From contig JAJZDI010000003.1 of assembly GCA_021806045.1 (NCBI GenBank), positions 124,001 to 188,000 on the forward strand: a DNA stretch of 64,000 nucleotides, read 5' to 3'. A program made the position numbers and the translations under genes. Source of the DNA: Actinomycetes bacterium (lineage in GTDB: Bacteria > Actinomycetota > Acidimicrobiia > Acidimicrobiales > RAAP-2). The first letter of the stretch is position 1. Every line of letters starts with the position of its first letter. Of this stretch, positions 3,499 to 25,691 are shown piece by piece. A model generated the notes under the pieces. The model ran no database searches, was not told the origin of the DNA, and saw only the letters and a program-made list of their open reading frames with translations.

Positions 3499-4238
3499 GG
3501 GGATTGCACCTCCACCGACGCCGCTGCCACCACGGCCTCGAAGAGCGCGGCGCCATCCCGCTCCTCGGGGTGCCATTGCACGCCCACCACGAACCCGCCA
3601 CCGCTTCGCTCGACCGCCTCGACCAACCCGTCGTCGGCCCAGGCCGTCGCCACCAGGCCGTCCCCCAGGCGGCCCACTGCCTGGTGGTGCGAGCAGGGGA
3701 CGGAGGCCTGGGGGCCGAGCAGGCGGTGGACGGTCGACCCGACGGCCGTCTGCACCCCGACGGCGCCTAACGTCCCCGGCGCCCGCCGGTGCACGTCGGT
3801 CCCGACGACGTCGGGCACATGGCCCACCAGGTCTCCCCCCAGCGCCACGTTGAGGACCTGCATCCCTCGGCAGATGGCCAGCACCGGGAGGCCGGCATCG
3901 AGGGCGGCGGTCGCCAGTGCAAGCTCAGCGGCGTCACGCCCGGGCAGCACCCCACCCAGGTGATCGTCGGCCACGCCGCCGTATCGGGCCGGATCGACGT
4001 CCCCCCCGCCGGTCAGCACGAGCGCGGCAGCTGCGCCGACTACCCCCGCCGCCCATCCGGGCATGTCGACGCCGTCCCCAGAGGTGCCCTCCGGCGGAGC
4101 GACCACCAGCGGGAGCCCACCCGCCGCGTGCACGGCATCGACGTAGGTGGTGGCCAGCACCACCGCCTCGCGGTCCCACGCGCCCCACGTCGCCCGCAGG
4201 CGAGGCGCAGTCAGGGCAACGACGGGGCGACCCGGCAC
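3495..4238 (-). CDS. Class I glutamine amidotransferase, PuuD-like gamma-glutamyl hydrolase (peptidase C26)
   Basis: A 247-residue protein of the gamma-glutamyl-GABA hydrolase type, expected to cleave gamma-glutamyl amides. The triad is visible: nucleophile Cys123 in AICRGMQ, and His223 and Glu225 in QWHPEE. LTGGGDVDPARYG near residue 75 is typical of the PuuD group. The GTG at 4238 fits the family length; the open frame upstream codes for unlikely sequence. It is first in an operon with aldehyde dehydrogenase and SDR (4-bp overlaps), divergent from another SDR across about 165 bp. With the glutamine synthetase at 9.2 kb it suggests a gamma-glutamylated amine pathway. Confidence 0.88.
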   Translation of the reverse strand: MPGRPVVALTAPRLRATWGAWDREAVVLATTYVDAVHAAGGLPLVVAPPEGTSGDGVDMPGWAAGVVGAAAALVLTGGGDVDPARYGGVADDHLGGVLPGRDAAELALATAALDAGLPVLAICRGMQVLNVALGGDLVGHVPDVVGTDVHRRAPGTLGAVGVQTAVGSTVHRLLGPQASVPCSHHQAVGRLGDGLVATAWADDGLVEAVERSGGGFVVGVQWHPEERDGAALFEAVVAAASVEVQSP

Positions 4239-4402: not shown

Positions 4403-5179
4403 ATGGGCCGGCTCGATGGCAAGGTGGCGATCGTCACCGGGGGTGGCAGCGGGATCGGGCGGGTCTCGTCGGAGCTGTTCGCGGCCGAAGGCGCCCGGGT
4501 GGTGGTGGCCGATGTGTCCGGTGCCGCCGCCGGCGAGGCCGCCGCGGCCATCGCCGCGGCCGGCGGCGACGCTCGTGCCGTCGAGGTCGACGTGGCCGAC
4601 GAGGCCGGCGCCGCCCACATGGTCCGGTCGGCGATCGACGCCTACGGTCGACTCGACGTCCTCTTCGCCAACGCCGGCATCTTCCCGGCCGACGACGGCG
4701 GTGTGCTCGACACGCCCCCTGACACGTGGCAGCGGGTGATGGACGTCAACCTGAAGGGCGTGTGGTTGAGCTGCCGGGCGGCCATACCCGCCATGCTCGA
4801 CTCGGGGGGCGGCTCGATCGTGAACGTCGCGTCCTTCGTCGCCATCGTGGGGGCGGCCACCGCACAGGTCGCCTACACCGCCTCGAAGGGCGGCGTCCTG
4901 GCCTTCACCCGCGAGCTGGCCGTCGAGTACGCCCGCAAGAACATCCGGGCCAACTCCCTGTGCCCCGGGCCTATCGAGACGCCCCTGCTGGCCGAGCTGC
5001 TGGCCGACCCCGCCCGCCGGGAGCGGCGGCTCGTCCACATCCCCATCGGTCGCTTCGGCCGGCCCGAGGAGATCGCCCGTGCCGCGCTCTTCCTCGCCTC
5101 CGACGAGGCGTCGTTCGTCACCGGCTCGTCCTTGGTGGTCGACGGCGGCATCACCGCCGCGTACGTCACTCCGGAGTAG
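4403..5179 (+). CDS. Short-chain dehydrogenase/reductase (FabG-like)
   Basis: A 258-residue classical SDR. Motifs: TGGGSGIG at about 13-20, ANAG near 92, the catalytic Ser in VNVASF near 142, YTASK near 155, and the C-terminal GSSLVVDGG typical of FabG-like members. A purine-rich ribosome site (GGAACGGAGG) precedes the ATG. It is transcribed away from the PuuD-like operon from a shared intergenic region, suggesting joint control. The substrate is unknown. Its 3' end overlaps the convergent MFS gene by 14 bp. Confidence 0.9.
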   Translation: MGRLDGKVAIVTGGGSGIGRVSSELFAAEGARVVVADVSGAAAGEAAAAIAAAGGDARAVEVDVADEAGAAHMVRSAIDAYGRLDVLFANAGIFPADDGGVLDTPPDTWQRVMDVNLKGVWLSCRAAIPAMLDSGGGSIVNVASFVAIVGAATAQVAYTASKGGVLAFTRELAVEYARKNIRANSLCPGPIETPLLAELLADPARRERRLVHIPIGRFGRPEEIARAALFLASDEASFVTGSSLVVDGGITAAYVTPE

Positions 5180-7001
5180 CCCCCCCGGCCGTCGGAGCGT
5201 CGCTGCCAGCACGGGGTGCGCCCCCGCCGGCAGCAGACCCGCCGGCAGCAGACCCGCCGGCAGCAGACCCGTCGGCAGCAGACTCGTCGGCAGCAGACCA
5301 GCCGGCAGCAGACCCGCCGGCAGCAGACCCGCCGGTGCCGGCATCAGGGGCACCTGCGTCACGGGCACCTGCCCGGCCGGCAAGTTCAGAGCCGTCCCTG
5401 GCGGGCAGTAGGACCAGCACCAGCAGGGCGCCGGCTGCGGCAGCCACTGCGCCCACCACCATGGCCAGGTCCATCCCGGCCAGGAACGCCTTCCTCGCTG
5501 CGTCGGCAAGGGCGGCACCGAGTGCACCGCCCACGTGCTCAGCGACCGCCAGCGCACCGCCGAGCGAGCCGAGGATGAGGTGCTGCACGTTCGCTGGGAT
5601 CCCATGCCCGGCGATCGTCGTGCCGAGGTCGCCGTGGAACCGCATGTTGAGGAGGCTGCCGAGGACGGCCACGCCCAGCGCCCCACCGACCTGGAGGGCG
5701 GAGCCGTTGGTGGCCGAACCGACACCCGCCTGGTCGGCCGGGAGCGATCCCATGATCGACTCGGTCGACGGAGCGAACGACAGCCCGGTCCCGAGGCCGA
5801 GCAGGAGCAGGGCCACCAACGCGTCCCCGTAGGTCCCGGCCGTGGTCGTACGCGACAGGAGCACCATGCCCGCCGCGATGAGCCCGAGCCCGACGAAGAC
5901 GACGATCTTCGTCCCCACCATCCGCACGAGCACGGTCGAGAGCGGTGCCACCACCAGGATCAGCGCCGCCACCGGCATGACCCTGACGCCCGTCTCGAGT
6001 GGCGAGTAGCCCAGCGAGAACTGGAGGTACTGGGTCAGGAGGAACAGGGTGCCCATGAGGGCGAAGATCACCAGTGCCATGGCCGACATGGCCACCGAGA
6101 ACCTGCGGCTGGAGAAGAACTCGAGGGGGAGCATGGGATGGTCGATCCGCCGCTCCCACCAGACGAACCCGGCCATCACCAGGCAACCGACGACGAGCGT
6201 CCCCCATACCAGCGGTGATCCCCATCCGCGTTGGGGTGCCTCGATGATCCCTCCCACCACGAGCGCCAGCCCCACGATCGAGCAGACGGCGCCGACCGGG
6301 TCGATGCGCTTGGGCGTCGGGCTCTTGGAATTGGGAACCAGCCACCAGGCGGCCAACGCCCCGGCCGCGGCGATCGGCACGTTCACGAGGAAGACCGATC
6401 CCCACCAGAAGTGGGCGAGCAGCCACCCCCCCACGATGGGACCGATCCCGATCCCGATCCCGGTGGTGCCCGACCAGATCCCGATGGCCCGGGCCCGGTC
6501 GTGAGGCTCGGTGAAGATGTTCGTGATGATCGACAGGGTGGTCGGCATGATGGCGGCGCCGCCGATGCCCATGAACCCGCGAGCGACCACGAGCAGCGTC
6601 GGCGTCCCCGAGAACGCGGATGCGGCCGAGCCCGCGGCGAACAGCACCAGGCCGGCCATGAACACGACCTTCCGACCGATCCGGTCGCCCAGGCTCCCGA
6701 AGGCGAGCAACAGGCCGGCGAAGACCACCGCGTAGGAGTCGACGATCCACTGGAGCTGCGAGTCCGACGCGTGGAGGTCACGCACCAGGGTGGGCAGGGC
6801 GACGTTGAGGATGGTGTTGTCGAGGCTGACGACGAGCAGGCTGACGCACAGGACGATGAGGGCGACCCACCGCCGGGCGTCGGAATGACGGGCATCCGCC
6901 CGCACCCGGTGACGTGGTGAGCCCGTCGTTGCCGATCCCCGGCTCGCCGGTCGGTCGGTGCCATCCCCGGTCGGCAGATCGCCCCCGTCCGGTGCCGCCA
7001 T
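5166..7001 (-). CDS. MFS transporter, DHA2 (EmrB/QacA) drug-efflux family
   Basis: A proton-driven exporter of the 14-helix DHA2 group in the cytoplasmic membrane. After about 45 hydrophilic residues, helix 1 carries the family pattern SLDNTILNVALP. The motif GDRIGRK follows helix 2, and GIWSGTTGIGIGIGPIVGGW corresponds to motif C of antiporters. The ATG at 7001 follows a good ribosome site (GGGAGG, 7-nt spacing); two in-frame ATGs lie just upstream. The hydrophilic C-terminal tail contains a run of SAAG/SAAD repeats. Substrate unknown. No adjacent regulator. Confidence 0.9.
   Translation of the reverse strand: MAAPDGGDLPTGDGTDRPASRGSATTGSPRHRVRADARHSDARRWVALIVLCVSLLVVSLDNTILNVALPTLVRDLHASDSQLQWIVDSYAVVFAGLLLAFGSLGDRIGRKVVFMAGLVLFAAGSAASAFSGTPTLLVVARGFMGIGGAAIMPTTLSIITNIFTEPHDRARAIGIWSGTTGIGIGIGPIVGGWLLAHFWWGSVFLVNVPIAAAGALAAWWLVPNSKSPTPKRIDPVGAVCSIVGLALVVGGIIEAPQRGWGSPLVWGTLVVGCLVMAGFVWWERRIDHPMLPLEFFSSRRFSVAMSAMALVIFALMGTLFLLTQYLQFSLGYSPLETGVRVMPVAALILVVAPLSTVLVRMVGTKIVVFVGLGLIAAGMVLLSRTTTAGTYGDALVALLLLGLGTGLSFAPSTESIMGSLPADQAGVGSATNGSALQVGGALGVAVLGSLLNMRFHGDLGTTIAGHGIPANVQHLILGSLGGALAVAEHVGGALGAALADAARKAFLAGMDLAMVVGAVAAAAGALLVLVLLPARDGSELAGRAGARDAGAPDAGTGGSAAGGSAAGWSAADESAADGSAAGGSAAGGSAAGGGAPRAGSDAPTAGGATPE
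5223..5337 (-). repeat. 15-bp in-frame tandem repeat in exporter tail
   Basis: About eight degenerate copies of a 15-bp unit (gccggcagcagaccc on the + strand) code for GSAAG/ESAAD-type pentads in the C-terminal tail of the MFS protein. Confidence 0.85.
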
Positions 7002-7256
7002 CCCATCACCTCCCGGCATCACTGCCTGCGGTCCGACCGGCCTGTGTGGCCGGACGCGGATCCCTACCGGCTACCAGGGCGAACCTTAGGGTCGCCACCC
7101 GCGCCGGGGCGAACCCGGGGGGAGCCGGTACTTGCATGGCGGCACACATGGCCGCCCCGGTGGCGAATGCGTGCGAGCCGCCGCGCACGGGTCGCGGTGC
7201 GCGATCGCCTTCCGAGGCGGGCGCACCGGCGGGAGCACGGGTTCGGTGCGGGCGCC

Positions 7257-8870
7257 TCAGGTTCGGGACGGCAACGGACGCATGGCACGCGGCCGGCGTG
7301 TGCGCACGGCCAGCGCGAGCAGGCCGGTGCCACCGATGGCGATCGCCAGGAGCAGGCCACCGGCCGCCCCCGTCGGCAGCTCGGTGCCGGAGATGGCGGC
7401 AACGTCGGCGACCACGCCGTCACCCGCAGCGACACAGTCCGGGGTGGTCGTTGCCTGGACCGATGTGCCACCCGGACCGCCGACGCCCGGACCGCCCGGA
7501 CCGTGCGGACCGTGCGGACCGTGCGGACCGTGCGGACCGTGCGGACCGTGCGGACCGCCCGGAGATCCCTTCGCCCCTCTGGCGTCGCACCAGAGCGCGT
7601 CCAGGCCCCCCGCCGGACCGGTACCCGGGCCGACGACCGGCACCTGCACCCACCCGGACGGGGTCTGCTCGGCAGCCAGTCCGCTGGTGGAACCGGCGGA
7701 ACCTGCGGAGCCGACCGCTTGGCACGCTTCACCCCTCGGGCAGGACAACGCAAAGGGGCCGAACGGTCCCGACGCCGATGAGGACGGGAACGGCGGACCG
7801 CCGGCACCAGTGCCTGGGGGACGGTGACCCGACGGCCCACCGTGCACGCCCGGGTCGACTGAGAGGAACGACACCTGCGCGACCGCCCCACCGGGGAAGG
7901 CGCCCGTCCCGGTGACGGCGACCACACACCGGCTCACCGTGCTGCATGCCGTGCCGGTGAGCGTCCAGGACGTGTTGCGAGGCACCGACACGATCTCCTG
8001 TGTGGTGGACCACTCCGGCCCCACGAGCTGTGCGAACGACAGCGACTCCGCTCCCACCCCGTAGGGCAGGGCCCCGACGCCCACGTCGCACCGATCCGGG
8101 CCCACGCAGTCGACCGAGCCCGCACCGGCCAGGCCCGGCGGCGCGGCCATCGGATGCCACGAGCCAGGTACACCGGAGCGGGCGACCGATCCATCGGGCG
8201 TGCGAGCGATGACCAGGCACCAGGTGGGCGACGGGCAGGAGACAGCCGGTCCGGCGCTGTCCGACATGGATGTCGCCATCCCCGGGACCAACTCCGGCGG
8301 TCCGACAGCATCGCTCGACACCAGGATGGTGAAGACGGACGTACCGCCCTCAGGAGCAGTCGCCCACCCGGCCACCACGCAGTTCCCCCGGGGGACGCAG
8401 CTGACCGAGGTCAGCCGTCCACCTGTCGCACCTGCCGGGAGCAGGCCCGTCGTGACGAGCTCCAGCCTGCCCCCGTCATCGATCACGACCACCGGTGCAG
8501 GCGGGTCACCCGGGAGGCTGCCCGCAGCGACGCACCACCCGGATGTGGCACACGAGATCGACGTCAGATCGGGGAGGCGACCGTCCACCCGGGGCACCGC
8601 CACCTCGTTCCACTGCCCGGCCACGGGAGCGCCGGCTGCCGCCGCCGGTGCAGCCAGCGCCAGTTGTACGGTCACCCACCCGACGAGGACCAGGATCGAC
8701 GCGACTGCGCGGACGGCACGGCCTTGCCGTCGGTCCGCCTCAGGCCGCGCACCGCCGACCGCCCGCTCCGCGCCCCCATCCGAGCTCACCAGCGCATCCC
8801 CTCCGAGACCGACCACTACTCCGCCACCCATCCCCACATCACACATCTCCCCGTCACCCACCGCCGCCAC
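7257..8870 (-). CDS. Secreted, C-terminally anchored protein with repeated Cys-pair motifs and a GPH tract
   Basis: No enzyme family recognised. A hydrophobic segment (about 53-78, ending APAAAAGAP) looks like a signal peptide behind a long N-terminus, so the real start may be an internal Val or Met. The body repeats a short pattern of two Cys about seven residues apart followed by a V-A-x-G strand: ISCATSGWCVAAG, VSCVPRGNCVVAG, VSCPSPTWCLV, VDCVGPDRCDVG, TACSTVSRCVV, LSCPRGEACQAVG. This suggests a beta-propeller-like surface protein with disulfide-stapled blades. A collagen-like GPH run and a C-terminal helix followed by RTRRPRAMR suggest a membrane anchor. Function unknown. Confidence 0.65.
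   Translation of the reverse strand: MAAVGDGEMCDVGMGGGVVVGLGGDALVSSDGGAERAVGGARPEADRRQGRAVRAVASILVLVGWVTVQLALAAPAAAAGAPVAGQWNEVAVPRVDGRLPDLTSISCATSGWCVAAGSLPGDPPAPVVVIDDGGRLELVTTGLLPAGATGGRLTSVSCVPRGNCVVAGWATAPEGGTSVFTILVSSDAVGPPELVPGMATSMSDSAGPAVSCPSPTWCLVIARTPDGSVARSGVPGSWHPMAAPPGLAGAGSVDCVGPDRCDVGVGALPYGVGAESLSFAQLVGPEWSTTQEIVSVPRNTSWTLTGTACSTVSRCVVAVTGTGAFPGGAVAQVSFLSVDPGVHGGPSGHRPPGTGAGGPPFPSSSASGPFGPFALSCPRGEACQAVGSAGSAGSTSGLAAEQTPSGWVQVPVVGPGTGPAGGLDALWCDARGAKGSPGGPHGPHGPHGPHGPHGPHGPGGPGVGGPGGTSVQATTTPDCVAAGDGVVADVAAISGTELPTGAAGGLLLAIAIGGTGLLALAVRTRRPRAMRPLPSRT
7498..7551 (-). repeat. 9-bp in-frame tandem repeat (Gly-Pro-His)
   Basis: Six perfect copies of ggaccgtgc (+ strand) code for alternating Gly-Pro-His in the surface protein, flanked by diverged copies. 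Confidence 0.9.
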
Positions 8871-10989: not shown

Positions 10990-12282
10990 ATGGCCGATGC
11001 GACAACGTCGGATTCGACCCGCACCGCTATCACGCTCGTGCACCTCTCCTGCCTCCTGGGCGGGCAGGTGACGACGTCAGGTGACCGGCGCGTCGGGAAG
11101 TTGAGCGACGTGATCGTCCGGTTGGGCGACGGGGGGTACCCGCCGCTGACCGGACTGGTGGTGACGGCCGGCGGGCGCCAACGGTTCGCCCACATGCACG
11201 ACGTGGCGCGCCTCGATCGGGACGGGGTCCAGCTGTCGTCGGATCCCGACCAGCTCGGCCCCTTCGAGCGCCGCCAGGGGGAGGTGCTTCTGGCGAAGGA
11301 CGTGGCGGGCCGGCACCTGATCCACCTCAGCGGCGCCCGGCTCGTCCGCGCCAACGAGATCGAACTGGCGCACATCGACGGCCGGTGGTCGGTGATCGGC
11401 GTCGACCCGACGTCCAAACCGGTGCTGCGCCGCCTCCTGCCTCGTGGGGCACGGGACCGGATCAGAGCAGGGGGCACCGTGGACTGGGCGGAGATCGAGC
11501 CGTTCGTCTCCCACGTCCCCACCGCCCGGTTGCGGATCCCCCTGCGCAAACTGGCACGCCTCCACCCGGCCCAGCTGGCAGACCTCGTCGAAGCGGCGTC
11601 GCATGAGGAAGGTGAGGAGATCATCGCCGCCGTGGGAGGGGACCGCGAGCTCGAGGCGGACGTGTTCGAGGAGCTCGACATGGAGCACCAGGTCGAATTC
11701 CTCCGGTCGCGATCGGACGACGAGGCGGCTCGGGTCCTGGCTGCGATGGCACCGGATGACGCCGTGGACCTGTTGGAGGAGCTCGACCAGGAGCGCCGCC
11801 TTCCGATCCTGCAACGCCTGCCGGCCCCACACCAGCGCAAGCTCCGCTCGCTGCTCAGCTACAACCCCGAGACAGCCGGGGGCCTGATGAACCCGGACTT
11901 CGTCGCCGTGTCCGCGGAGCGCACAGTCGGCGAAGCCCTGGCCGAGGTGAAGAGATCGCCGGTCGCTCCCGAGGCATCGGGGGTGGTGCTCGTGACCGAC
12001 CCGGCCGGCCACCTGGCCGGGACCGTGCTGGTCGTCGAGCTCCTTCGAGGCGACCCCACCGCGGAGGTGGGCACAGTCGCCCATCCCGATCCCGTCGCGT
12101 TGACGCCGGACGCCGACGTGCACGAGGTGTCGCGGGCCATGAGCGACTACAACTTGGCGGTCCTGCCCGTGGTGGACGACGACCGGGCCGTCCTCGGGCT
12201 CATCAGCGTGGACGACGTGCTGGAGCTGCTCCTCCCCGAAGGGTGGCGCCGCCAGTACGGCATGACGTCCACCAACGGGTAG
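10990..12282 (+). CDS. PRC-barrel / MgtE N-domain / CBS-pair protein, Mg2+-sensor-like, no channel domain
   Basis: A 430-residue soluble protein assembled like the cytosolic part of the Mg2+ channel MgtE. It has a PRC-barrel-like N-terminal region (about 20-150, VGKLSDVIVRLGDG), the superhelical MgtE_N domain (about 185-290, with LAAMAPDDAVDLLEELD), the linker LLSYNPETAGGLMNPDFVAV, and two CBS repeats (about 305-425, ending VLGLISVDDVLELLL). The transmembrane MgtE channel is absent, so this is not itself a channel. In MgtE these domains sense Mg2+. It lies upstream of an M-box riboswitch and an NRAMP-type transporter, suggesting it senses Mg2+ for, or gates, that transporter (inference). Confidence 0.88.
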   Translation: MADATTSDSTRTAITLVHLSCLLGGQVTTSGDRRVGKLSDVIVRLGDGGYPPLTGLVVTAGGRQRFAHMHDVARLDRDGVQLSSDPDQLGPFERRQGEVLLAKDVAGRHLIHLSGARLVRANEIELAHIDGRWSVIGVDPTSKPVLRRLLPRGARDRIRAGGTVDWAEIEPFVSHVPTARLRIPLRKLARLHPAQLADLVEAASHEEGEEIIAAVGGDRELEADVFEELDMEHQVEFLRSRSDDEAARVLAAMAPDDAVDLLEELDQERRLPILQRLPAPHQRKLRSLLSYNPETAGGLMNPDFVAVSAERTVGEALAEVKRSPVAPEASGVVLVTDPAGHLAGTVLVVELLRGDPTAEVGTVAHPDPVALTPDADVHEVSRAMSDYNLAVLPVVDDDRAVLGLISVDDVLELLLPEGWRRQYGMTSTNG

Positions 12283-12397: not shown

Positions 12398-12403
12398 TAT
12401 ATT
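12398..12403 (+). promoter_or_regulatory. Candidate -10 element for the riboswitch transcript
   Basis: TATATT stands out in otherwise GC-rich DNA, about 10-15 bp before the first conserved M-box bases, so a start near 12410 would place the aptamer at the 5' end of the mRNA. The -35 region is not clear. Confidence 0.5.
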
Positions 12404-12411
12404 GATGGCGC

Positions 12412-12581
12412 AGTCGCACCTCGTTCGGTGAGGCGTCTGTTCGGACATAGGCCGCTGGCCCCACCTGTCGAGAGACACTCCGGGCCAGAACAGTCCTCCC
12501 CGACCCAAGGGGTGGACCGAAGCGGCTGACCTCTCGAGGTCTACGCCGGGCAGTGCCAAAGCTCTTACGGGAGGGTGCAAC
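12412..12581 (+). promoter_or_regulatory. M-box (ykoK) Mg2+ riboswitch
   Basis: Several strongly conserved M-box segments appear in the right order: GGTGAGGC at 12427-12434, GGACATAGGCCGCTGGCC at 12443-12460, TGTCGAGAGAC at about 12466-12476, and the 3' block CAGTGCCAAAGCTCTTACGG at about 12551-12570. Size (about 165 nt) and position fit the family, which turns off Mg2+ uptake genes when Mg2+ is high. The aptamer is followed by about 260 nt before the transporter ATG, room for an expression platform; the switching mechanism could not be read. Confidence 0.9.
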
Positions 12582-12840
12582 CTGGACACCTGGTCCCCTG
12601 CGGACCACAACGCCCGGCGCGCATTCGTCGCGCGGCTGCCTGCCTCCGCGGCCGACGTGCCGAGGGCAGGAACTGTTGGAACGACCAAGGAGCTTCGCTG
12701 AGCGCCGACAGAGGGTCACCTCACCAACCTTCGGCGCCTCCTGCCGACCCGGGCCCGGCCGGCTGAGCCGACCGCCCCGGGAACGGGGGGCGCCTGAGCT
12801 TCACTCAGTCCGTCCACCACGTCCCCGGGAGGCCACCGGC

Positions 12841-14469
12841 ATGTCTGACGACACGATCGACACGTCGACCGGCCCCAGCGCGGTCCTCGACGAGGCCCAC
12901 CTCGGTGACATCCGGGGAGCGCTGGGCACCATCAAGCAGCACGACCTCGGGGCGCGGCGCACCTGGCGGGCCCGGCTCCTGACCCTGGCGGCCATCGTCG
13001 GCCCGGGGATCATCGTCATGGTCGGCGACAACGACGCCGGTGGGGTGGCGACCTACTCGCAAGCCGGGCAGAACTACGGAACCAGCCTGCTCTGGACGCT
13101 GATCCTCCTCATCCCCGTGCTGGTGGTGAACCAGGAGATGGTCGTCCGGCTCGGAGCCGTGACCGGCGTGGGACACGCCCGCCTGATCAAGGAACGGTTC
13201 GGCAAGTTCTGGGGATGGTTCTCCGTCGGCGATCTGTTCCTGCTCGACTTCCTCACCATCGTGACGGAGTTCATCGGCGTCGACCTGGCCCTGTCCTACT
13301 TCGGCGTCAGCAAGTACGTGTCCGTGCCGATCGCCGCCTTCGGGCTCGTGGTCATGACGGCCAGCGGCAGCTTCCGGCGATGGGAACGGTTCATGCTCCT
13401 CTTCGTCGCAGCGAACTTCCTGGTCATCCCGCTCGCAGTGTTCGCCCATCCCCACGCCGGGCCGATCCTGCACGACCTCGTCGTCCCGGGCATCCGGGGA
13501 GGGGTGAGCTCGACGTCGGTGCTGTTGATCATCGCCATCGTCGGCACCACGGTCGCCCCGTGGCAGCTCTTCTTCCAGCAGTCGAACATCATCGACAAGC
13601 GGATCACGCCCCGGTGGATCAATTACGAGCGCGCCGACACCGTCATCGGTTCGGTCGTCACGGTGGTCGGCGCCGGCGCCATGATCGTCACCTGCGCGTT
13701 CGCACTCGATCACAGCCACTATTTCGGCGCGTTCACCGACGCCGGCGGTGTCGCCCGGGCCCTCTCCCACCAGGTCAGCTACACGGCGGGCGCCCTGTAC
13801 GCGATCGTCCTGGTGAACGCGTCGATCATCGGTGCCGCCGCCGTGACGCTCGGCACCTCGTACGCCTTCGGGGACATGTTCGGTGCCCGCCACTCGTTGC
13901 ACCGGAACTTCTTCGAGGCCCCGGGCTTCTACTCGAGCTTCGCCGGCCTCGTCGCCCTCGCCGCCGGGATCGTGCTGATCCCCGGAGCGCCCCTGGGGCT
14001 CATCACCACCTCGGTGCAGGCCCTGGCCGGCGTGCTGCTGCCGTCGGCGTCCGTCTTCCTCCTCCTGCTCTGCAACGACAAGGAGGTCCTCGGTCCGTGG
14101 GTCAACCGGCCGTGGCTGAACGCCGTCGCCGCCTTCATCATCGGTGTGCTGCTGATCCTGTCGCTCGTCCTGGTGGTGACCACCATCTTCCCGGCCATCA
14201 ACGTCACCGTCCTGACCCTCGTCCTGTTCGGCGTCCTGATCGTGTCCCTCGGTGCAGGTGGCTTCGTCTATGCCGCCACCCTCGGCAAGCGGCAGGCCAC
14301 AGCGCCGATCGGGCACCGCGACACCTGGCGGATGCCGCCGCTCACCCTGCTCGGCCGGCCGGAGTGGTCCCGGGGCAGGACCGCTGCCATGTGGTCCCTG
14401 CGGGGCTACCTCGTGGTGGCGGTGGTCCTGCTCGTCGTCAAGGCGGTCCAGCTCGGAACCGGGCACTGA
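12841..14469 (+). CDS. NRAMP-fold divalent cation transporter, NRMT (Mg2+) type
   Basis: A 542-residue polytopic membrane protein of the NRAMP family (LeuT fold). Helix 1 begins GPGIIVMVGDNDAGG: the canonical metal motif DPGN is replaced by DAGG (Asp65 kept, Asn to Gly). In helix 6 the usual MPH is APW (A239-P240-W241), so the soft-metal-selecting Met is lost. These changes are what I recall for NRAMP-related Mg2+ transporters (NRMT), not Mn2+/Fe2+ NRAMPs. An M-box riboswitch in its leader and an MgtE_N/CBS gene upstream both support Mg2+. The ATG at 12841 follows GGGAGG within the leader. Mn2+ transport is the alternative, but the missing Met argues against it. Confidence 0.88.
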   Translation: MSDDTIDTSTGPSAVLDEAHLGDIRGALGTIKQHDLGARRTWRARLLTLAAIVGPGIIVMVGDNDAGGVATYSQAGQNYGTSLLWTLILLIPVLVVNQEMVVRLGAVTGVGHARLIKERFGKFWGWFSVGDLFLLDFLTIVTEFIGVDLALSYFGVSKYVSVPIAAFGLVVMTASGSFRRWERFMLLFVAANFLVIPLAVFAHPHAGPILHDLVVPGIRGGVSSTSVLLIIAIVGTTVAPWQLFFQQSNIIDKRITPRWINYERADTVIGSVVTVVGAGAMIVTCAFALDHSHYFGAFTDAGGVARALSHQVSYTAGALYAIVLVNASIIGAAAVTLGTSYAFGDMFGARHSLHRNFFEAPGFYSSFAGLVALAAGIVLIPGAPLGLITTSVQALAGVLLPSASVFLLLLCNDKEVLGPWVNRPWLNAVAAFIIGVLLILSLVLVVTTIFPAINVTVLTLVLFGVLIVSLGAGGFVYAATLGKRQATAPIGHRDTWRMPPLTLLGRPEWSRGRTAAMWSLRGYLVVAVVLLVVKAVQLGTGH

Positions 14470-21259: not shown

Positions 21260-21912
21260 ACGTGCGAGCCGTCGTCGGATCGATGCGCCGATACCCTTCC
21301 TGCCAACGGCTGACCTTGGTTGCCAGATGTGGTTCGGCAACCGGTAACCGGGCGCCTGCGAACATCCGGATCGCCGTGCATCCTGCCGGTTGGGCCGCCA
21401 TCGCAGGGATCCTGCTGGCGGCCTGCAGCTCGGCACCGACAGCTGCGACGCACGTGGCGCCAGGTTCCCCGCGGACGGTGTGCTCACTGGTGAACACCGC
21501 CGAGGTGAGCGCCGCCCTCGGCGAGCCCGCGTACGGTCCGAGTGGCTGCACAGTGCAGCGGGGCAGTCAGAGCATCGCTGACTACGTCGTGCAGGGGAAG
21601 ATCGCAGGGACGCTGCTCGAGGTGAGCCTCGCTTGGAGCACCACCGCTGTCACCACGTTCACGACGAGCCACAGCGGCCACGCCCGATACACCACCCAGC
21701 AGGGAGCGCCCGTTGCCCCGCCCACGTTCGCCAAGGTCACCGTGGCCGGGGTGCCTGCCTATTGGCAGGTCACCCCCCTTCCAGAGCCGGGCGATCCGAA
21801 GGCCATGCGGATCAGCGCCCTCAAGAACGGCTACGTGGTCAGCGTCTATTCCTCGGAGTTGAGCCAGCTCCAGGACGAGAAGGTGTTAGGCGCAGTCCTC
21901 ACCAACCTGTAG
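21256..21912 (+). CDS. Putative lipoprotein
   Basis: A 218-residue protein with a lipobox GILLAACSS, so it is expected to be lipid-anchored on the outer face of the membrane. The mature part has two Cys (about 76 and 96) and a DUF3558-like look (CSLVNTAEVSAALG ... GCTVQRG), but I would not assign the family. The ATG at 21256 overlaps the upstream stop (ATGA), giving a long 57-residue leader; an internal GTG near 21376 would give a normal signal peptide and is a real alternative. It is probably co-expressed with the SecD-head protein under the GntR regulator. Confidence 0.72.
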   Translation: MNVRAVVGSMRRYPSCQRLTLVARCGSATGNRAPANIRIAVHPAGWAAIAGILLAACSSAPTAATHVAPGSPRTVCSLVNTAEVSAALGEPAYGPSGCTVQRGSQSIADYVVQGKIAGTLLEVSLAWSTTAVTTFTTSHSGHARYTTQQGAPVAPPTFAKVTVAGVPAYWQVTPLPEPGDPKAMRISALKNGYVVSVYSSELSQLQDEKVLGAVLTNL

Positions 21913-22229
21913 GCACAGCTTCGCCGATCCCCGCCCATCCGAGCGGAACCGGACGGACGATCGTCTCGGATCCGGGCGTCTCCCGTCGGGCTGACATCCA
22001 GGGCACGGAGAACATGTCGGGACGGATCGGCCATCACGTGCCCCTGACCGGGCACCGACCAAATTCACCAGGCCGCCAGTCACCAGGCCACCAGCCTCGA
22101 TGCCCCGCCGCCGCCCGCCGGCAGCCGCCCCGTGGCAGCTCCCGAGCCGATGCCCGCTCGACGCCTAAGCTCTGCCCCTTGGGGACGCGTCCGGGGGCTC
22201 GGACGCCGTCGGAAGGGGGTGCTGCCGGC
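21913..22229. other. Intergenic region before the Gly-rich surface protein
   Basis: About 317 bp with no convincing gene. It holds a short imperfect repeat (caccaggccgccag / caccaggccaccag, about 22067-22095). The promoter of the downstream gene probably lies here. Confidence 0.4.
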
Positions 22230-25200
22230 ATGGTGCGCGTTTCGGAACGGGTCCGGCGGCGAGCCGGCCGCGCCGCGGTGGTCATGGTGCTGGCACTGCC
22301 GTCGACCGGCGTGATCTCGGCGATCACCGCAACCGGCGCCGGAGCAGCGACCACCCTGACCGTCACCAATTGCAGCGACTCGGGTGCGGGATCGCTGCGC
22401 GACGCCGTCTCGGCCGCCGATGCGACCGCCGGCGCCACCATCTCGTTCTCCCCGTCACTGGGATGCTCACTGATCACGCTCACCAGCGGACCGCTCGACC
22501 TGACCAGCACGGTGACGATCACCGGCCCCGGCGCGTCCGCGCTTGCCATCTCGGCCAACCACGCCAGCCAGGTCGTCACCATCACCGGCCCTTCCACGTC
22601 CGTCACCCTGGCCGGCCTGACCATCGAGGACGGGCAGGCCGGCCCCGGTGCCTCCGGCGGCGGCATCGACGACCAGTCGGCCTCCGGCGACCTCGCGCTC
22701 GACGGTGTCACCGTCACCGGCAATGCGGCCGGTGCCGGCAGTCCCGGCCTCCCTGGCAGCTCCAGCTCGACCGCACCCGGCGGGAGCGGTAGCGCCGGGG
22801 GGAACGGCGGGGGGGGCGGGGGGATCATGTTCGCCGGGTCCGGCACGCTCGCCATCACGGGCAGCACCATCGCCTCCAACTCCGCGGGTTCAGGGGGGAA
22901 CGGTGGTGACGGAGGTGCCGGCTCCACCGGTGGGGCCGGGGGTGCCGGTGGCTCCGGGGGTGCCGGGGGCGGCATCCTCGTTGCCACCTCCGGGACACTC
23001 GCCGTGGACAACAGCACCATCACCTCCGACTCGGCAGGTCCCGGCGGCGCCGGCGGCGCCGGCGGCGCGGGCCTCAGCGGCAGCGCCGGTGGCGGTAACG
23101 GTGGGGTCGGGGGCAGCGGTGGCGCAGGCGGTGGGATGTCCCTGTCCGCATCGTCGAGCCTGCGGATCTCCGGCAGCTCCGTGACGGCGAACCGCGGCGG
23201 CGCGGGTGGCGCCGGTGGTTCGGGGGGTGCCAACGAGGGCGGTGGCGGCAGCGGCGGGGGGGTCGGGGGTAGCGGCGGCACGGGTGGCGTCGGCGGTGGC
23301 GTGTCGACGTCCTCGTCGGGGACCATCGCCCTGACCGGCATCTCCCTCTCCTCGAACAGCGCCGGAGCCGGCGGGAACGGTGGCGCGGGCGGCGTCAACA
23401 TCGGCACCGCACCGGCCGGGACCGGCGGTGACGGCGGTGCCGGCGGTGCCGGTGGGGGGATGAGCGCGACCGGTCCGGCCGCCCTGGATGTCATCGGGGG
23501 TACGGTCGCCTCGAACACGGGCGGCGCGGGCGGGAGCGGCGGTGCCGGTGGCGAGCAGCAGGGCTCCGGCGGTCCGGCCGGCGTGGGCGGGCTCGGTGGA
23601 CCGGGCGGGGGCGGCGGCGGGGTCGCCGTTGGGTGTCCGGGGAGCTGTGCGGGCCCGTCGACCATCTCCGGGACCACTGTCACCTCGAACATGGGTGGCC
23701 CGGGCGGCGCGGGCGGGCCAGGCGGCGGCGTGAGCGGGAGCACGGCCGCCGCCGGGAGCGGAGGCGCCGGTGGGACGGGCGGTACCGGCGGCGGCGTCCT
23801 GGCCGCCGGCTCGGGCTCGTTGGGCCTCTCGGATAGCACGGTCTCCCTCAACGGCGCCGGTGCGGGGGGTGCCGGCGGCATCGGCGGGAGCAACCTCACC
23901 AAGGCGAACGCACCCAGCACCTCGTTCCAGGCGGGTGCCGGCGGGCAGGGTGGCTCCGGTGGGAGCGGGGGTGGTGCGGCCGCCGCGTCGTCGGTCTCGC
24001 TGAGCGCCACGGACGCGACGTTCTCCTCCAACACGGCGGGCGCCGGTGGTGCCGGCGCCACCGGTGGCAACACCGCCGGTGGCCTGAGTGGCGGCAACGG
24101 CGGCGGCGGCGGGTCAGGGGGAGACGGCGGTGGGATCTCGTCGAGCTCGTCCCAGGCGACCGCCGTCACCAGCAGCACGGTGGTCTCCGACGTCGGAGGC
24201 ACCGGAGGCGGCGGTGGTGCGGGTGGCAGCAGTGCCGGGACGGCCGGAACTGCCGGCGTGACCGGTCCGGACGGCACCGTCGCCGGTATCTCCCTTTCGG
24301 GACCCGCGACGGGCGACCTCACAGCGTCGCTGCTGGACGACACGGCGGGCGGGGGGACCGAGTGCGGCGCGGCGATGGGAACCGGCGGCGGCTACAACGT
24401 GGCCACGGACGGGTCGTGCTTCGCCGCTCCAGCGCCGGCCACCGACGACACGACGTGGAACGGCAGCGACCTCGGACCGCTGGCGAGCAACGGGGGTCCC
24501 ACCCAGACCCGTGCCGTGCTGGCCGGCAACCCGGCCATCGGGTCCGTCACCAGCGCCGCCGAGTGCGCAGCGGCCGACCAGCGGGGGGCGACGCGCCCGT
24601 CGACCCACTGCACGGCGGGCGCCTACGAGTACTACGCCGTGCTGCTGAACATCGATGGCTCCCAGAGCTTCGGGAGCTCCCCCACCTTCGAGGCGACGGG
24701 GACGCTGCCGGCCGGGATCACCTTCACCGGCACCCCCTCGTGCGCCACGGTCGGCGGCGGCACCCCGATCTCCCTCACCCTGGGGGCGCCCGGCGCGTAC
24801 ACCAGCTTCACCATCGACGCCGACTCGTGTTCCGGGCTCGCACTCGCCGGCCCCGGCGCCGGGAGCTACGTCATCACCTACGTGGGCGGGGGCTTCATCG
24901 TCTCCCCTGCCGACTTCACCGGCTACGACCTCGCTGGCGCGGACGGCGGGGTGTTCGCTTTCGGGGACGCCCGCTACCACGGCTCGGTCCCCGGGCTGGG
25001 TGTGCACGTCTCCGACATCGTGGCCATGGCGGCCCCGCCCGGTGGCGGCGGCTACTGGCTCGTCGGCCGCGACGGCGGGGTGTTCGCCTTCGGGGACGCC
25101 CGCTACCACGGCTCGGTCCCCGGGCTGGGTGTGCACGTCTCCGACATCGTGGCCATCGTCCCCACGCCCGACGGCGGGGGGTACCTGCTGGTCGGCCGCG

Positions 25201-25691
25201 ACGGCGGGGTGTTCGCCTTCGGGGACGCCCGCTACCGGGGCTCGGTCCCCGGGCTGGGCGTGCACGTCACCGACATCGTGGCCGCGGCTCCCTCGCCCGG
25301 CGGCGGGGGGTACCTGCTGGTCGGGTCGGACGGCGGGGTGTTCGCCTTCGGGTACGCCCGCTACCGGGGCTCGGTCCCCGGGCTGGGCGTGCATGTCTCC
25401 GACATCGTGGACGTGGCCACCACCCTCGACGGCGGCGGCTACTGGGTCGTGGGCCGGGACGGCGGGGTGTTCGCCTTCGGGGACGCCCGCTACCGCGGCT
25501 CGGTCCCCGGGCTCGGCATCCACGTCTCCGACATCGTGGCCGTCACGCCGAGTGCCGACAGCGGTGGGTACCTGCTGGTGGGGGCGGACGGTGGGGTGTT
25601 CGCCTTCGGGGACGCCCCCTACCGCGGGTCACTCCCCGGACTCGGTGTGCACGTCACCGACATCGTGGGGGGCGTGACCACGGGGAACTGA
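22230..25691 (+). CDS. Large secreted Gly-rich (PGRS-like) repeat protein with GGVFAFGDA repeats
   Basis: A 1153-residue predicted surface protein. A signal peptide (VVMVLALPSTGVISAITATGAGA) follows RRRAGRA. Residues about 40-140 resemble the start of a right-handed beta-helix (NCSDSGAGSLRDAVSAAD, ITGPGASALAI). Residues about 170-690 are very Gly-rich (GGAGGAGG) with regularly spaced strands such as TLAITGSTIASNSAG, as in polymorphic beta-helix and PGRS proteins. After a short domain (about 790-900), six 43-residue repeats of the GGVFAFGDARYxGSVPGLGVHV type reach the C-terminus. Such repeats occur in actinobacterial cell-surface proteins and may form a beta-propeller. The ATG at 22230 was chosen at the signal peptide. 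Adhesion or matrix function is only inferred. Confidence 0.8.
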   Translation: MVRVSERVRRRAGRAAVVMVLALPSTGVISAITATGAGAATTLTVTNCSDSGAGSLRDAVSAADATAGATISFSPSLGCSLITLTSGPLDLTSTVTITGPGASALAISANHASQVVTITGPSTSVTLAGLTIEDGQAGPGASGGGIDDQSASGDLALDGVTVTGNAAGAGSPGLPGSSSSTAPGGSGSAGGNGGGGGGIMFAGSGTLAITGSTIASNSAGSGGNGGDGGAGSTGGAGGAGGSGGAGGGILVATSGTLAVDNSTITSDSAGPGGAGGAGGAGLSGSAGGGNGGVGGSGGAGGGMSLSASSSLRISGSSVTANRGGAGGAGGSGGANEGGGGSGGGVGGSGGTGGVGGGVSTSSSGTIALTGISLSSNSAGAGGNGGAGGVNIGTAPAGTGGDGGAGGAGGGMSATGPAALDVIGGTVASNTGGAGGSGGAGGEQQGSGGPAGVGGLGGPGGGGGGVAVGCPGSCAGPSTISGTTVTSNMGGPGGAGGPGGGVSGSTAAAGSGGAGGTGGTGGGVLAAGSGSLGLSDSTVSLNGAGAGGAGGIGGSNLTKANAPSTSFQAGAGGQGGSGGSGGGAAAASSVSLSATDATFSSNTAGAGGAGATGGNTAGGLSGGNGGGGGSGGDGGGISSSSSQATAVTSSTVVSDVGGTGGGGGAGGSSAGTAGTAGVTGPDGTVAGISLSGPATGDLTASLLDDTAGGGTECGAAMGTGGGYNVATDGSCFAAPAPATDDTTWNGSDLGPLASNGGPTQTRAVLAGNPAIGSVTSAAECAAADQRGATRPSTHCTAGAYEYYAVLLNIDGSQSFGSSPTFEATGTLPAGITFTGTPSCATVGGGTPISLTLGAPGAYTSFTIDADSCSGLALAGPGAGSYVITYVGGGFIVSPADFTGYDLAGADGGVFAFGDARYHGSVPGLGVHVSDIVAMAAPPGGGGYWLVGRDGGVFAFGDARYHGSVPGLGVHVSDIVAIVPTPDGGGYLLVGRDGGVFAFGDARYRGSVPGLGVHVTDIVAAAPSPGGGGYLLVGSDGGVFAFGYARYRGSVPGLGVHVSDIVDVATTLDGGGYWVVGRDGGVFAFGDARYRGSVPGLGIHVSDIVAVTPSADSGGYLLVGADGGVFAFGDAPYRGSLPGLGVHVTDIVGGVTTGN
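24945..25688 (+). repeat. Six 129-bp in-frame tandem repeats
   Basis: Copies begin at GGVFAFG and run 43 codons each; the last is truncated at about 33 codons by the stop. They are highly similar at DNA level, suggesting recent duplication or gene conversion. Confidence 0.88.

Follow-up and report, generated by a model that had tools for sequence, protein, structure and literature searches.

We find that nrmT, a gene on a 64,000-nucleotide stretch of an Acidimicrobiia genome (contig JAJZDI010000003.1, the window hereafter), probably encodes an NRMT-type Mg2+ importer that is controlled by an M-box riboswitch together with a short leader open reading frame (ORF). The source assembly has a size of 3.1 Mb in 43 contigs and is 97.5% complete. 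The pairing of an M-box with NrmT is not new. The core of the locus was already known, because Shin et al. 2014 (PMC4072509) reported the combination of M-box, NrmT and an MgtE-N fragment from clostridia and deltaproteobacteria. What appears to be undescribed is the leader ORF between the M-box and nrmT, as well as the arrangement of the locus. Our literature search found no published account of an nrmT leader ORF. The following features make up the core of the locus:

10990-12282, + strand: mgtE-N, encoding a soluble protein of 430 aa with MgtE_N and CBS domains (PF03448, E 1.7e-20; PF00571, E 2.4e-15) and no MgtE transmembrane domain
12398-12403, + strand: TATATT, candidate -10 hexamer of an internal promoter just 5' of the M-box (TANNNT in 10/10 loci)
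12413-12581, + strand: M-box (ykoK) Mg2+ riboswitch aptamer (RF00380, 128.8 bits, E 1.4e-28)
12569-12576, + strand: P1 3' strand of the M-box, purine-rich and Shine-Dalgarno-like (GGGAGGGU), complementary to CCTCC at 12643-12647, weakly so in the window
12643-12647, + strand: CCTCC, by its complementarity a candidate anti-Shine-Dalgarno sequence or alternative partner of the P1 3' strand
12827-12832, + strand: GGGAGG, Shine-Dalgarno sequence of nrmT, complementary to bases immediately upstream of the 3' arm of helix H1 (see below)
12841-14469, + strand: nrmT, NRAMP-related putative Mg2+ transporter of 542 aa with DAGG and TTVAPW (PF01566, E 9.4e-77; EleNRMT, 7qia, E 1.9e-60)

An earlier, sequence-only reading of this DNA had seen an M-box in front of an NRAMP-type transporter with an altered metal site, and both parts of this observation hold. 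The search with RF00380 that it proposed returned a strong match (E 1.4e-28), which spans the full model (positions 1-169 of 169) and exceeds the gathering score of 44 by far. This M-box is the only one in the 3.1-Mb assembly. Its start had been placed at 12398, which is the first base of the TATATT hexamer; the aptamer proper begins at 12413. The M-box very likely controls nrmT.

The M-box lies between mgtE-N and nrmT in ten Acidimicrobiia-like loci, including the window. In all ten of them a TANNNT hexamer starts 15-21 nt upstream of the aptamer, compared to 0.6-6.5% per leader in shuffled sequences. Since the M-box and the promoter-like site stand between the two genes, mgtE-N is probably not regulated by the window's M-box. 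In two mycobacterial loci (L105 and L110) the M-box is found upstream of mgtE-N. Across the class the aptamer is sparsely distributed: 2 of 158 sampled genomes carry it, and it is absent from some relatives as close as 77%. Locus L050 retains a remnant (at about 3560-4000), where the ends of the region, the 5' hairpin and the downstream leader, are kept and the aptamer core is gone. Two further M-boxes near nrmT loci stand on the opposite strand and presumably serve other genes (L083 9268-9448, Kitasatospora; L095 793-967, Mycobacterium).

How the M-box may act on translation can be seen directly in another locus, L014 (genome G194, M-box at 1145-1314), because there the P1 3' strand (CAGGGGUCGGGU, which carries AGGGG) runs right up to the AUG of nrmT and leaves no room for a leader ORF. 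Judged from its sequence, L014 is a minimal M-box that would mask the Shine-Dalgarno sequence itself. In the window, the P1 3' strand could instead pair with CCTCC, and stronger equivalents of this pairing occur in L009, L010, L011, L033 and L037. Despite this complementarity we treat the alternative P1 helix as a suggestion, because a swap test between leaders is not significant (p 0.38). Right after the M-box, a three-way-junction-like stretch can be seen by eye; it is also found in leaders without M-box.

Alternatively, the M-box could act through Rho-dependent or other premature termination, and the leader ORF would then only cover or uncover RNA for Rho. We regard this as conceivable and well short of probable. 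The M-boxes of Mycobacterium tuberculosis pair translational control with Rho-dependent termination, as at pe20, where the translational M-box is accompanied by uORFs (PMC12810186). Actinobacterial leaders are also GC-rich, and by eye there is no hairpin followed by a U-run in the window's leader, while Alicyclobacillus (L076), where the M-box lies directly upstream of nrmT, has a clear intrinsic terminator behind it. The complementarity to the nrmT Shine-Dalgarno sequence and the L014 locus, on the other hand, favor a translational component, and both mechanisms can coexist. We infer control that is translational rather than purely Rho-dependent.

The interval between aptamer and ATG measures 259 nt. 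It had gone unremarked in the sequence-only reading, yet it holds a conserved leader ORF and a switchable structure:

12685-12794, + strand: conserved leader element, covariance model R1, comprising the leader ORF and helix H1 (84.6 bits, E 8.3e-14, with the window in the training set)
12687-12692, + strand: AAGGAG, Shine-Dalgarno sequence of the leader ORF, conserved in leader alignment A1
12698-12766, + strand: putative leader ORF of 22 codons with CTG start, (M)SADRGSPHQPSAPPADPGPAG, and stop codon TGA (invariant CTG, synonymous excess, acidic residue 4)
12733-12741, + strand: 5' arm of helix H1, GGCGCCTCC, inside the leader ORF (covariation; swap test p about 0)
12786-12794, + strand: 3' arm of helix H1, GGGGGCGCC, past the stop codon of the leader ORF (covariation; alternative downstream pairing across the family)

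A joint alignment of all long leaders revealed no structure; the structure emerged once the leaders were split by block. One block of about 110 nt aligns well among leaders both with and without M-box. The covariance model built on it, R1, matches at E below 1e-6 in 18 leaders, which are mostly its own training set. Among 296 genomes of the class it occurs in four, once per genome and before nrmT only. No Rfam family gives a credible match at E up to 10 in the leader (12582-12860). The sequences AAGGAGUAG/CCGACAG had led us to consider a yybP-ykoY Mn2+ riboswitch downstream of the M-box; it was rejected, since RF00080 has no match at E up to 10 in the same interval.

Two general points count against the ORF: at this GC content many frames happen to lack stop codons, and CUG starts are rare. 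The CTG columns are invariant in 17 leaders, about five bases 3' of a near-invariant AAGGAG, and ORFs of 15-28 codons open from that start in 21 leaders (two with GTG). Within the window's clade, the first 11 codons have accumulated 13 synonymous and 3 non-synonymous changes. Over three clades the ratio is 24:13 in the correct frame, compared to 12:21 and 5:27 in the other two (Fisher 1.6e-4, for related sequences whose pairs are not independent). Residue 4 of the leader peptide is an almost invariant Asp, and the peptide is rich in Pro. An acidic residue 4 is encoded by ORFs with a preceding Shine-Dalgarno sequence in 21 of 99 leaders, many of them related, whereas dinucleotide shuffles yield 1.6 (maximum 5). 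The ORF is also kept in relatives without M-box. In distant leaders (L048, L059 and L063) a GTG or ATG takes the position of the CTG downstream of the same ribosome site, and these leaders too encode peptides: VDADSEPRSTTPVARTP in L048, MDREQPRSTQPAARP in L063, and one of 17 residues in L059. From these signatures we judge it likely that the leader ORF is real and translated.

In seven further nrmT leaders (L029, L030, L031, L032, L046, L071 and L116), ORFs of 18-23 codons preceded by a Shine-Dalgarno sequence encode peptides with a PPS, PHS or PLS core, for example VKRGEPPSSR, MRSNPPSHRS and VESDDPLSS. They possibly belong to the same peptide family.

Our first reading of the conserved stretch was a purely non-coding element, which we gave up when the CTG that follows AAGGAG proved invariant and synonymous changes came to light. 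A variant of it, in which the stretch 3' of the M-box is a structured RNA such as another aptamer and the ORF is incidental, we consider unlikely. It could account for the covarying helices, for the lack of a fitting Rfam family and for codon 2, which varies mainly at positions one and two instead of the third. It does not account for a synonymous excess that is confined to the right frame, for the exchange of CUG, GUG and AUG starts at similar Shine-Dalgarno spacing, for gaps of 3 nt, or for ORFs in distant leaders that have no R1 match.

Helix H1 joins the translated part of the leader to the sequence behind it, and it covaries. In the alignment fitted to the model, 21 cells changed on both sides, compared to 5.8 in shuffled alignments and far above slid controls; in the unfitted alignment the numbers are 12 and 4.6. 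The 3' arm of H1 can also pair with an arm further downstream. For this competing helix, partners from the same leader beat swapped partners (p 0.0005; with one leader per clade p 0.005 or less), although in the window itself the helix is weak. Immediately upstream of the 3' arm of H1, the leader is complementary to the Shine-Dalgarno sequence of nrmT, a pairing with weaker support (swap p 0.005 overall; median 0.025 with one leader per clade).

If H1 is forced to form, the predicted access to the nrmT Shine-Dalgarno sequence in the window increases from 0.17 to 0.61. Access rises similarly in L009, L040 and L062, and about four or five of 17 leaders change as our model expects. In the remaining leaders of the 17 predicted access barely changes or moves the opposite way, making the free-energy picture mixed. 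On balance, we lean towards the view that the leader ORF gates nrmT.

Our proposal is an OFF-switch that acts on translation and takes two Mg2+ inputs; the second input would resemble MgtL and MgtQ. In this model, nrmT is the principal Mg2+ importer of the cell (an NRMT-type SLC11 protein) and would be expressed only at low cytosolic Mg2+. The regulated transcript would begin just upstream of the M-box, within the mgtE-N/nrmT pair. We infer the direction of the switch as follows. With ample Mg2+ the aptamer would be folded and P1 closed, and the downstream leader would hold the ribosome site of nrmT in a paired state (OFF). When Mg2+ is scarce, P1 would open, its 3' strand would become free for downstream pairing, and the nrmT ribosome site would be released (ON).

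The second step would depend on the ribosome. The 22-codon leader ORF would be translated across the 5' arm of H1. A ribosome that reads through the ORF would open H1, so that the 3' arm pairs downstream and the nrmT ribosome site is masked. A ribosome that drops off early at the N-terminal Asp- and Pro-rich codons, as in MgtL at low Mg2+, would allow H1 to form and free the nrmT site.

This second step is modelled on enterobacteria. In MgtL an EPDP motif causes ribosomes to drop off at low Mg2+ (PMC11282234), and in mgtQ the codons for Asp2 and Glu5 act through alternative stem-loops that release the ribosome site of mgtB (PMC8092293). The features that characterize these leaders, a short ORF with early acidic or Pro codons before a Mg2+ importer, are also present here: 22 codons, Asp4 and a Pro-rich sequence, together with alternative helices that would control access to the ribosome site or for Rho. 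However, no sequence homology to MgtL or mgtQ is shown, and transporter family, phylum and start codon all differ. The likeness is one of logic only. By this analogy, the leader ORF itself may sense Mg2+, which we suggest tentatively. Equally tentative is a broader proposal: the nrmT leaders could carry an undescribed family of Mg2+-sensing leader peptides (CUG, GUG or AUG start; acidic and Pro residues near the N-terminus) that act by ribosome drop-off and have an origin separate from that of MgtL. In this genome and some other Acidimicrobiia, such a leader would be stacked behind an M-box, placing two chemically different sensors in series on one message.

The product of nrmT itself is very likely a Mg2+ importer, as its metal site and its kinship suggest. 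The gene is a single ORF with ATG at 12841 as the most plausible start, 8 nt after GGGAGG. The defining feature of NRMTs is an ion site with DxxG-TxxA/T (PMC8806188), and aligned to EleNRMT the protein has DAGG in helix 1 and TTVA in helix 6. The replacement of DPGN by D-A-G-G and of MPH by APW (T-T-V-A-P-W) had been read correctly from the sequence. The DxxG-TxxA site is common to nearly all nrmT orthologues that we fetched. Alignment with characterized NRMTs, which the earlier reading had named as a check, points the same way: EleNRMT matches at E 1.9e-60 and the best canonical Mn2+/Fe2+ Nramp at 2.8e-15. In a tree, ScaDMT and BfraNramp stand apart from EleNRMT and the nrmT clade; we use the tree as supporting evidence only, because the outgroup branches are saturated. 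A canonical Mn2+/Fe2+ Nramp (MntH) was rejected, as DPGN and MPH are missing and the protein reaches 92 bits with the NCBIfam MntH model, whose cut-off is 430.

The genome encodes two more NRAMP-superfamily genes (C38:12660-13895 and C41:18231-19382). One is NRMT-like with DAGC/VVMPW and has EleNRMT as its best solved match; the other has DPTT. The closest relatives (L037, 88% identical, and L038, 80%) come from assemblies labelled Acidobacteriota, although the whole locus looks Acidimicrobiia-like. These assemblies are likely mislabelled or misbinned.

The neighboring gene and the rest of the genome strengthen the Mg2+ reading. The mgtE-N product aligns with the Mg2+-gated cytosolic domain of Thermus thermophilus MgtE. 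Domain order and the sequence of the Mg2+-sensing N and CBS parts are alike, but the protein is free-standing and has no membrane domain. We fetched 110 loci, some of which are redundant, and in 98 the gene directly precedes nrmT in the same orientation; its product is probably a cytosolic Mg2+-dependent partner of the transporter.

The MgtE membrane domain (PF01769) is absent both from this neighbor and from the whole assembly, whose single MgtE_N domain is the neighboring fragment. CorA was not found in the 97.5% complete assembly by a search that was positive in 14 of 14 control genomes, and no MgtA lies above the cut-off in the assembly, though other P-type ATPases are present. One CNNM/CorC protein is encoded, a family usually tied to Mg2+ efflux. 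Close nrmT orthologues (E below 1e-150) occur in 41 of 148 genomes of the order. CorA is present in 7 of these 41 and in 61 of the other 107 genomes (Fisher 1.5e-5, with kinship not corrected for). Functional replacement would produce such a pattern of avoidance. The Mg2+ reading gains from all three: a genome without CorA, MgtE or an MgtA over the cut-off, the avoidance of CorA, and the MgtE-N/CBS neighbor.

That the transporter is instead an NRAMP-superfamily Mn2+/Fe2+ importer, tuned by the M-box to overall divalent-ion status, is improbable: Pfam and NCBIfam do label it Nramp, an A. capsulatum relative that has an MgtE-N partner was able to complement a Mn2+ defect (PMC4072509), and the genome has the two other NRAMP-superfamily genes, but the DxxG-TxxA site lacks the Met and His found in canonical Nramps, the protein is nearest to EleNRMT and below the curated cut-offs of Mn2+ models, no other Mg2+ importer is recognized in the genome, and nrmT avoids CorA. 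Kinship alone does not settle the metal, because the A. capsulatum relative, which lacks an M-box, behaved mainly as a Mn2+ transporter (PMC4072509). The sequence-only reading had called the Mg2+ assignment unusually firm. Its direction is supported by the very strong RF00380 match, by EleNRMT as nearest solved relative and, independently, by the genome context; Mg2+ is the most likely substrate. The A. capsulatum relative makes "unusually firm" slightly too strong.

The best comparisons are Ca_c0685 of Clostridium acetobutylicum (PMC4072509) and EleNRMT (PMC8806188), which have in common with the window the M-box, the DxxG-TxxA NRAMP-related transporter and the MgtE-N operon gene. The window differs from them in its host, an actinobacterium of Acidimicrobiia type, and in the place of the M-box, which sits between mgtE-N and nrmT and has a promoter-like site of its own. 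It also has the leader ORF and a switchable helix between aptamer and gene, and no intrinsic terminator was seen. Unlike pe20 of M. tuberculosis, the window's M-box would directly control an NRMT gene, and the leader peptide has a CUG start and an acidic residue 4, with the ORF kept where the M-box is missing.

If our model is right, NRMT importers have an apparently unreported regulatory layer, a leader ORF through which the state of the ribosome is read out, in some cases with an aptamer for the same ion on top. Ribosome-based Mg2+ sensing would then exist outside enterobacteria. Why a cell would have two Mg2+ sensors could be studied in a natural comparison, since relatives have both, the ORF only, the M-box only (L014) or neither. 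The avoidance of CorA also suggests that a large, mostly uncultured group of actinobacteria takes up Mg2+ mainly through NRMT; annotation would otherwise present these transporters as Mn2+/Fe2+ importers.

Elsewhere in the window, low-complexity ORFs lie at 7257-8870 and 5166-7022 (both - strand), with a GPH-repeat stretch and an MFS-type transporter that has a repetitive Gly/Ala/Ser tail. A long Gly-rich ORF at 21633-25691 (+ strand) ends in tandem GDARYHGSVPGLGVHVSDIV repeats.
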